36,248 bases of DNA. Origin: Pseudomonadota bacterium. GTDB lineage: Bacteria; Pseudomonadota; Gammaproteobacteria; Xanthomonadales; Rhodanobacteraceae. The notes beneath the pieces were generated by a model. That model worked only from the letters and a program-made list of their open reading frames with translations, was not told the DNA's origin and ran no database searches. The position numbers and the translations under genes are program-made. Location of the stretch: contig JAJYSM010000031.1 in assembly GCA_021793575.1 (NCBI GenBank), forward strand, positions 1-36,248, in the 5' to 3' direction. This document shows positions 25,889-36,248 of the stretch, piece after piece; the stretch's first letter is position 1, and each line of letters opens with the position of its first letter.

Positions 25889-26048
25889 GGGCAGAGCCTC
25901 ACTGGATGAGCGAGTCACTATGGGGGTGTTGCGTGACAACGAAAAGGGGGAGAGGGCAAATAAATGTACGCGGGGGTACAGGTGGGGCTGCGGCTCGGCG
26001 TTCTGCACGGTTGCAGCCGCATCACGCGATGCGACGGTCAATCCATTT

Positions 26049-34343: not shown

Positions 34344-35041
34344 GCAGCGGCCAGGGTCAGCTGCAGGCTGGCTGGAAGGCGCGCATCGGCGACTATCTGC
34401 AGCGCCCCGAGATGCAGGCGCTGGCCGCTTTCCTGCGCGCGGAGAAACAGGCCGGCAAGCGGATCTATCCGCCCGGCCCGGAGATCTTTGCGGCGTTCGC
34501 GCACACCCCGTTCGAGGCGGTGCGGGTGGTGATCCTGGGACAGGATCCCTACCATGGCCCCGGCCAGGCGCACGGCCTGTGCTTTTCGGTGGTGCCGGGA
34601 GTGCGGGTGCCGCCGTCGCTGGAAAACATCTTCAAGGAGATCCAGCGCGACCTGGGCATCCCGCGCCCCGGCCACGGCTGCCTGACGCCGTGGGCCGAGC
34701 GCGGCGTGCTGCTGCTCAACAGCGTGCTGACGGTGGAGGATGGCCGTGCCGGCGCGCATCAGGGCAAGGGCTGGGAGGGCTTCACCGATGCCGCCATCGA
34801 CGCGCTCAACCGCGAGCGCGAGGGGCTGGTGTTCCTGCTGTGGGGCGCCTATGCCCAGCGCAAGGGCGCACTGATCGACAGCGCACGCCACTGCGTGCTG
34901 AGCGCGGTGCATCCGTCGCCGCTGTCGGCCCATCGCGGCTTCATCGGCTGCGGCCACTTCTCTGCCGCCAACCGCTACCTGCAGCAGCACGGCAGCGCGC
35001 CGATCGACTGGTCGCTGCCGCCGCACACGGACCTGCAGTAG
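34340..35041 (+). CDS. ung: Uracil-DNA glycosylase, family 1
   Basis: 233 residues. It removes uracil from DNA arising by cytosine deamination or dUTP use. The water-activating motif GQDPYHG is at about residues 67-73 (Asp69). [49 protein letters not shown] and the [11 protein letters not shown] loop with the catalytic His (about 190) follow in order. It is translationally coupled to the response regulator. rpoH is the next gene on the same strand. Confidence 0.97.
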
Positions 35042-35142
35042 TTCGTCTATTTGCTGACATCGTTAACGGAACTGGACAACTCGGCACAGGGCTGGATTAC
35101 TGCGGCCAATATCTGTACGATATGGTTCATTAAGTCGCCGCC

Positions 35143-35170
35143 GGAACTTGTCCGACTCTTAGCACTCTCA
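35143..35170 (+). promoter_or_regulatory. Sigma-E-type promoter of rpoH
   Basis: GGAACTT (35143-35149) and TCTCA (35166-35170) are separated by 16 bases. This is the sigma-E / AlgU pattern (GGAACTT, 16 bases, TCTGA) with one mismatch in the -10. The start of transcription would be near 35177, giving a leader of about 38 bases. A weaker sigma-70-like pair, TGGATT and TACGAT, 17 bases apart, lies further upstream. Confidence 0.7.
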
Positions 35171-35185
35171 ACACCCGACTGCTAA
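35159..35185 (+). promoter_or_regulatory. CIRCE operator (HrcA site) over the rpoH promoter
   Basis: TTAGCACTC (35159-35167), a 9-base spacer, then GACTGCTAA (35177-35185). The consensus is TTAGCACTC-N9-GAGTGCTAA, so 17 of 18 operator bases match and the spacing is exact. It covers the -10 and the start site of the sigma-E-type promoter. HrcA bound here would block that promoter. Confidence 0.9.
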
Positions 35186-35214
35186 ACTGCGGCGTCATTC
35201 AGGAGGTTCCAACC

Positions 35215-36075
<861 letters not shown>

Positions 36076-36129: not shown

Positions 36130-36248
36130 GTGCGCCCGGCAGGGCGCACCTGCTTGGAGGTGAAAGTCCTCTATCCACCCGGCAAGGGGAAGGATTAGCC
36201 AGAGGCAAGGGCGATCGGGTGACTGGTCGTCTGAAGGAAGCCCGAGGC
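36130..36248 (+). mobile_element. 5' end of a group II intron (cut off by the window edge)
   Basis: The last 119 bases begin GTGCGCCC and fold at once into an 8-bp hairpin with GGGCGCAC around GGCA. They continue with GGAGGTGAAAGTCCTC, CCAGAGGCAAGGGCG and TCTGAAGGAAGCCCGAGGC. GTGYG at the 5' splice site and the GGTGAAAGTCC and TCTGAAGGAAGCC blocks are hallmarks I know from bacterial group II intron domain I. The reverse transcriptase/maturase would lie beyond the window. Placement just after an intrinsic terminator is typical of class C introns. The family is recognised by pattern; class and completeness cannot be set here. Confidence 0.8.

Follow-up and report, generated by a model that had tools for sequence, protein, structure and literature searches.

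The rpoH gene of this genome is probably controlled by a sigma-E promoter that has its -10 and start region within a CIRCE element, an arrangement in which HrcA and the sigma-E polymerase would compete for the same stretch of DNA. A first-pass annotation of the window (the whole stretch of DNA analysed here, 36,248 nucleotides) had read this as one site serving both envelope stress and HrcA control of rpoH. That reading is supported by our comparison of rpoH upstream regions, from whose sequences we infer HrcA binding, repression and sigma-E dependence at rpoH. Far from being confined to this genome, the site is the rule at rpoH among those sampled members of the order that have HrcA (62/65), and the arrangement is present in other gamma- and betaproteobacteria as well.

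Elements in front of rpoH

The downstream protein is RpoH (TIGR02392, 408.8 bits against a cut-off of 323.1). Its gene starts at 35215, after an intergenic gap of 173 bases, and the gene upstream, which ends at 35041, we take by its look to be uracil-DNA-glycosylase-like. Within the gap, the promoter string proposed by the first-pass annotation, GGAACTT-N16-TCTCA, matches letter for letter at 35143-35170 and partly coincides with the CIRCE at 35159-35185, which lies 29 bp before rpoH (Table 1). The letters of the operator likewise agree with what had been claimed. In full it reads TTAGCACTC-TCAACACCC-GACTGCTAA, with an exact 9-bp spacer and 17 of 18 consensus bases when held against TTAGCACTC-N9-GAGTGCTAA, the consensus used here; the sole mismatch is at the third base of the right arm, which has C where the consensus has G. 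The sigma-E-type -10 consists of the TC that closes the left arm and the TCA of the spacer.

Table 1. Features of the rpoH upstream region, in positions of the window
Feature	Position	Strand	Basis
Sigma-E-type -35, GGAACTT (7/7)	35143..35149	+	Letters read directly; GGAACTT-like in 72/105 rpoH-CIRCE sites, 16-17 bp before CIRCE
Sigma-E-type -10, TCTCA (TCNNA)	35166..35170	+	16 bp after the -35; its TC closes the CIRCE left arm
CIRCE, predicted HrcA operator, TTAGCACTC-N9-GACTGCTAA	35159..35185	+	17/18; 0/100 shuffles; presence tracks HrcA across genomes
Approximate start expected from the sigma-E promoter	35177	+	Inferred from promoter geometry, about 7 bases after the -10
P1, second promoter, sigma-70-like, TGGATT-N17-TACGAT with upstream TG	35093..35121	+	Alignment of 16 relatives
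TGTAC-N6-GTTCA over the P1 -10, possible operator	35114..35129	+	23/26 same-family loci
Shine-Dalgarno, AGGAGG	35201..35206	+	Letters read directly
rpoH, sigma-32, 286 aa	35215..36075	+	TIGR02392 profile match

The two halves of the site differ in how far their letters speak for themselves. With up to three mismatches allowed, the window holds a single CIRCE and 100 shuffles hold none, whereas the promoter string with one mismatch allowed was present in 37 of 100 shuffled versions of the window. What makes the promoter half credible is therefore where it stands and how it is conserved, and not the string alone.

About 50 bp further upstream lies a second promoter, P1, which an alignment of 16 relatives resolves as TGGACA-N17-TACNAT with a TG before the -10. 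It was missed by a consensus scan because the -35 of this copy is weak. Since P1 is present, the sigma-E/CIRCE site does not carry all rpoH transcription and is one of two inputs. A slightly loosened pattern, TGTAC-N6-GTWCA, spans the -10 of P1 in 23 of 26 loci of the family, some of which have the perfect palindrome TGTAC-N6-GTACA; P1 may thus be read by sigma-70 and have a regulator of its own. A wider regulon for TGTAC-N6-GTWCA was considered and rejected, as the genome holds only one other exact copy, at 25965-25980 of the window, near the start of a gene that is presumably gshA.

Two further candidates were set aside. Scanning 35000-35260 revealed no consensus sigma-70 promoter over CIRCE, and an RNA thermometer in the rpoH leader found no backing in the fold around the start codon, which is ordinary (z-score -0.37; 63/200 shuffles as stable). 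Rfam models gave no match at gathering scores anywhere in the window. Soon after rpoH, at 36130-36248, the contig seems to end inside the 5' part of a group II intron: RF02001 is matched from 36213 with 25 bits, below the gathering score of 32 and cut by the contig end, and DNA similar to this segment is found in 143 plasmid records.

Conserved spacing and shared bases

For comparison, we assembled 190 rpoH upstream regions, comprising 80 from named species and 110 from genomes of the order. The latter (30 returned as loci and 80 chosen across families) were taken from the 152 genomes with an rpoH match among 160 searched, and the two samples were pooled without a check for double entries. One locus (L053) was left out throughout for its 30-base upstream; another (L070) holds part of rpoH only, which makes its upstream wrong, and is counted in the named table of 79 loci and in the sigma-E retention count and dropped from the table of 78 species. 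We called a CIRCE at rpoH when at least 15 of 18 bases agreed, accepting the standard or the alternate base at one position per arm. This threshold was reached by mononucleotide-shuffled upstreams in 2 of 3,800 trials, and by 105 of the 190 rpoH upstream regions.

At these 105 sites, the distance between the -35 and CIRCE is narrowly distributed: 59 have a GGAACTT-like -35 at 16 bp, 13 at 17 bp, 6 at 14 bp and one each at 12 and 25 bp, and at the other distances from 7 to 25 bp no such -35 (at least 6/7) occurs among them. Joint conservation of the two elements upstream of rpoH, which the first-pass annotation had proposed as a check, is hence seen at 72 of the 105 sites, counting those at 16-17 bp. 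Our control consisted of 46 CIRCE sites away from rpoH in the genomes of named species, 39 of which stand before groES. None of these 39 has a GGAACTT-like -35 at any distance from 7 to 25 bp; instead, TTGA is found within 45 bases upstream in 35/39, as in sigma-32 or sigma-70 promoters.

The -10 itself is a composite, in which the TC of TCNNA is the end of the left arm of CIRCE and the NNA falls on the first bases of the spacer, a stretch that the HrcA consensus leaves free. At rpoH sites with the -35, the third spacer base is an A in 65 of 72 cases, compared to 5 of 25 at rpoH sites without it and 4 of 39 at groES sites. Overall, TCNNA stands 15-17 bp from the -35 in 70 of the 79 rpoH sites that have one, while shuffling the nine spacer bases in 200 rounds yielded a mean of 21.7 and a maximum of 32 (of 79). 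Where CIRCE is placed 2 bp closer to the -35, TCNNA is still found at 16 bp in four of six sites; as it stays fixed at this distance though CIRCE has shifted, the -10 follows the promoter and not the operator. An accidental overlap would draw on the commonness of the promoter string in window shuffles and on the CTC carried by CIRCE arms, by which TCNNA near GGAACTT is expected occasionally. Such an origin is already contradicted by the controls, namely the spacer A that groES sites rarely have despite the same arms and the excess over shuffled spacers, and we regard it as scarcely credible.

A second reading would make CIRCE act chiefly on P1, by roadblock or looping, and leave the sigma-E-like string as a minor or dead promoter. 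It finds some encouragement close to home, where P1 shows good conservation within the window's own family, as judged by the motif over its -10, and where the sigma-E element is uneven: only 2 of the 5 genomes of the genus that we examined pass our strict sigma-E test, and in three of the four relatives, which fail it, the -35 is GGAACCA-like, so that sigma-E strength may vary. Set against this is the wider comparison, in which the -35/CIRCE distance and the TCNNA in CIRCE are kept across distant groups, many of them without the P1 motif, with nothing similar at the 39 groES sites of the sampled genomes. We consider this reading unlikely and favor the sigma-E promoter fused with CIRCE. The fusion does not extend to every operator, since 25 of the 105 rpoH-CIRCE sites are without even a weak GGAACTT-like -35. 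Many of these come from Burkholderiales (among them Herbaspirillum, Pandoraea and Trinickia), and going by their sequences HrcA must act on another promoter there.

HrcA and the operator across genomes

Both regulators presupposed by the first-pass annotation are encoded in the genome. There is one HrcA (PF01628, 218 bits; TIGR00331, 309.6 bits, cut-off 197.2), whose gene is adjoined by grpE, and one RpoE above the cut-off (TIGR02939, 320.9 bits, cut-off 236.15). The frame next to rpoE carries an RseA_N domain (59.8 bits, cut-off 24) and scores 45.6 against the NCBIfam RseA equivalog, below its cut-off of 263; upstream of rpoE itself stands GAACTT-N15-GTCTGA. Allowing up to three mismatches, CIRCE is found at two places only in the 3.2-Mb draft genome, at rpoH and, as the single further copy, before groES, and a reversed control pattern is found nowhere in it. 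No CIRCE was seen before hrcA-grpE, where the best candidate in 4,180 bases had 11/18. The predicted HrcA regulon is therefore groES and rpoH. The window belongs to the family of Dyella, one genome of which (G104) has its site with letters and contig position identical to those in the genome of Dyella flagellata (L004).

Across the order, the operator keeps company with its presumed repressor. HrcA and rpoH-CIRCE occur together in 62 genomes, HrcA only in 3, CIRCE only in none and neither in 45; a lack of the operator in relatives, which the annotation had named as a refutation, is therefore not what is seen, and neither is a lack of hrcA, its other such condition. In named species (n=78), the corresponding numbers are 40, 5, 3 and 30. 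In these tables, absence of HrcA means that the genome is not among the HrcA matches listed, and some genomes are incomplete drafts. The three exceptions in the order are of different kinds: by eye, one (L155, genome G147) has two perfect CIRCE arms with an 8-base spacer and another (L118, genome G219) has worn arms about 6 bp apart, while the third (L156) has HrcA and nothing CIRCE-like before rpoH. Pseudoalteromonas luteoviolacea (L032) combines a divergent HrcA (E 1.2e-11) with a perfect rpoH-CIRCE in a clade otherwise without HrcA among the genomes sampled; no GGAACTT stands near this operator, and the pair was either regained or retained.

To what extent these counts reflect shared descent can be read from trees of rpoH proteins. 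In a tree of 124 proteins, independent pairs changed the same way in five cases, the opposite way in none and without difference in one (median p 0.0625). This tree leaves out three metagenome drafts with CIRCE in which no HrcA was found (L012, L057 and L067); they are kept in the counts of rpoH-CIRCE sites, in the table of named species, in the sigma-E retention count and in an earlier tree of 107 proteins, which gave a median p of 0.5. Raw counts tie HrcA strongly to CIRCE, and the direction is consistent; with few independent changes, phylogenetic power is low.

The same counts bear on whether the operator could be a relic, a slowly decaying sequence through which HrcA no longer regulates rpoH. 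The one mismatch in the window's CIRCE would fit such decay, as would some Xanthomonas-like rpoH sites that are worn at their outer bases (L006, L129). A relic would not be expected to remain intact in 62/65 genomes with HrcA and in 0/45 without, nor would its arms tend to change together, as they do in the Xanthomonas-like family described below. We therefore hold this explanation to be very unlikely.

Natural losses of HrcA indicate what becomes of the promoter. At rpoH, the strict sigma-E test is passed by 49/65 HrcA-bearing and 27/45 HrcA-less genomes of the order, the latter retaining a sigma-E-like promoter within 220 bases of the gene (shuffled mean 0.48). In two members of one genus (L120 and L121), the sigma-E elements are intact and CIRCE has worn away. 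The base preceding the TC of the -10 is a G in 21 of the 27 HrcA-less order genomes with a sigma-E-like promoter; named species that have such a promoter but neither HrcA nor CIRCE show the G in 12 of 16 cases. HrcA-bearing members with CIRCE have a C at this position in 31/46 and a G in 15/46.

This base is also where the operator varies within the family of Xanthomonas-like members (f2), to which the two genomes with a worn CIRCE belong. Their rpoH operator is mostly TTAGCAGTC-N9-GACTGCTAA; among the 22 genomes in which both sites are readable, both arms have the alternate form in 16/22 at rpoH and in 2/22 at groES, and the left arm has the G in 18/22 rpoH compared to 10/22 groES sites (Fisher p 0.027, kinship ignored). 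One possibility suggested by these sequences is that the change gives the -10 the G favored by CIRCE-free sigma-E promoters and that the other arm follows for symmetry; because the left-arm contrast is modest, we keep it as a possibility only. In the window, the left arm is standard and the right arm alternate. As a separate observation, made by eye, the sigma-E -35 of rpoH is immediately preceded in three loci of this family (L008, L124 and L125) by a palindrome of the form CGTTCCA-N4-TGGAACG, which was not seen in the family of the window.

From this pattern, we would tentatively sketch a history, to which we give somewhat less than an even chance. The rpoH promoter of the beta-/gammaproteobacterial ancestor may already have been a fused gate (sigma-E AND NOT HrcA, on shared bases), and the enterobacterial form with sigma-E only would be what remained after loss of HrcA and drift of the -10 to GTCNNA. 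In f2, the operator would have changed symmetrically (CAGTC...GACTG), providing the preferred G with the palindrome kept.

Predicted circuit and known systems

Free GroEL keeps HrcA active, as established for HrcA of Bacillus, and misfolded outer-membrane proteins cause RseA to release sigma-E. Applied to the rpoH site, HrcA would be active as long as GroEL is free and would cover the -10 and the start near 35177; once unfolded protein occupies GroEL, HrcA would fail and the promoter would open. Envelope stress, by releasing sigma-E, would lead to rpoH being transcribed. The predicted logic is sigma-E AND NOT HrcA, placed inside a loop running from sigma-32 to GroEL, HrcA and back to rpoH. Since the only other site of HrcA is groES, sigma-32, GroEL and HrcA would be joined in negative feedback, in which the step from sigma-32 to groES is itself a prediction for this genome. 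P1 would supply basal rpoH, and HrcA on CIRCE could hinder its transcript as a roadblock. In Xylella under nitrogen starvation, rpoH is reported to rise two-fold and hrcA four-fold (PMC3224663). Such a joint rise does not favor simple repression there.

The closest known counterpart of the promoter is P3 of E. coli rpoH, a sigma-E promoter with a GGAACTT-type -35, 16-bp spacing and a TCNNA-type -10 in front of the gene. The site described here resembles it in the type of its -35, in its spacing and in the type of its -10, and in that envelope stress would feed the heat-shock sigma factor; regulation of rpoH by sigma-E in E. coli is stated in PMC10433810. A P3-like promoter was also evident in the enterobacterial loci that we sampled (e.g. 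L045, L054 and L061). In contrast to the present site, the enterobacterial genomes sampled yielded neither hrcA nor CIRCE, and their -10 is operator-free and mostly GTCNNA.

The operator, in turn, is like that of HrcA/CIRCE control of groESL, in this genome and in relatives, with the same operator and presumably the same repressor. The groES copies differ in sitting behind a TTGA-type promoter (35/39), in having no GGAACTT and in rarely having A as spacer base 3 (4/39). To judge from the title of their survey of HrcA/CIRCE regulons of beta-, gamma- and epsilonproteobacteria, which PMC545781 and PMC1978210 cite, Permina and Gelfand (2003/2004) are the most likely to have described CIRCE at rpoH in these groups before. 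For Geobacter sulfurreducens, a full CIRCE 51 bp before rpoH has been described and HrcA control of sigma-32 predicted (PMC545781, Table 8). In the parts of that paper accessible to us, rpoH-CIRCE is listed for this organism alone among the species studied, and, unlike here, a sigma-E promoter that has bases in common with the operator is not named. CIRCE at rpoH is not mentioned in the excerpts consulted of PMC11764788, PMC10696704, PMC10490939, PMC10433810, PMC9866376 and PMC1978210. In Xanthomonas campestris, rpoH reportedly could not be deleted (PMC6085468). Both inputs were already known; for their fusion on shared bases at rpoH, we found no account in the open-licence literature.

In the E. 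coli model, heat-shock control consists of post-transcriptional control of sigma-32 together with the sigma-E promoter. For many HrcA-bearing proteobacteria our analysis predicts a different wiring, in which the supply of chaperonin would feed back on rpoH transcription, and would do so at the very bases that read envelope stress. The site also offers a clear case in which a promoter element and the operator of a repressor evolve as a single sequence, and in which lineages that have lost the repressor serve as natural controls.
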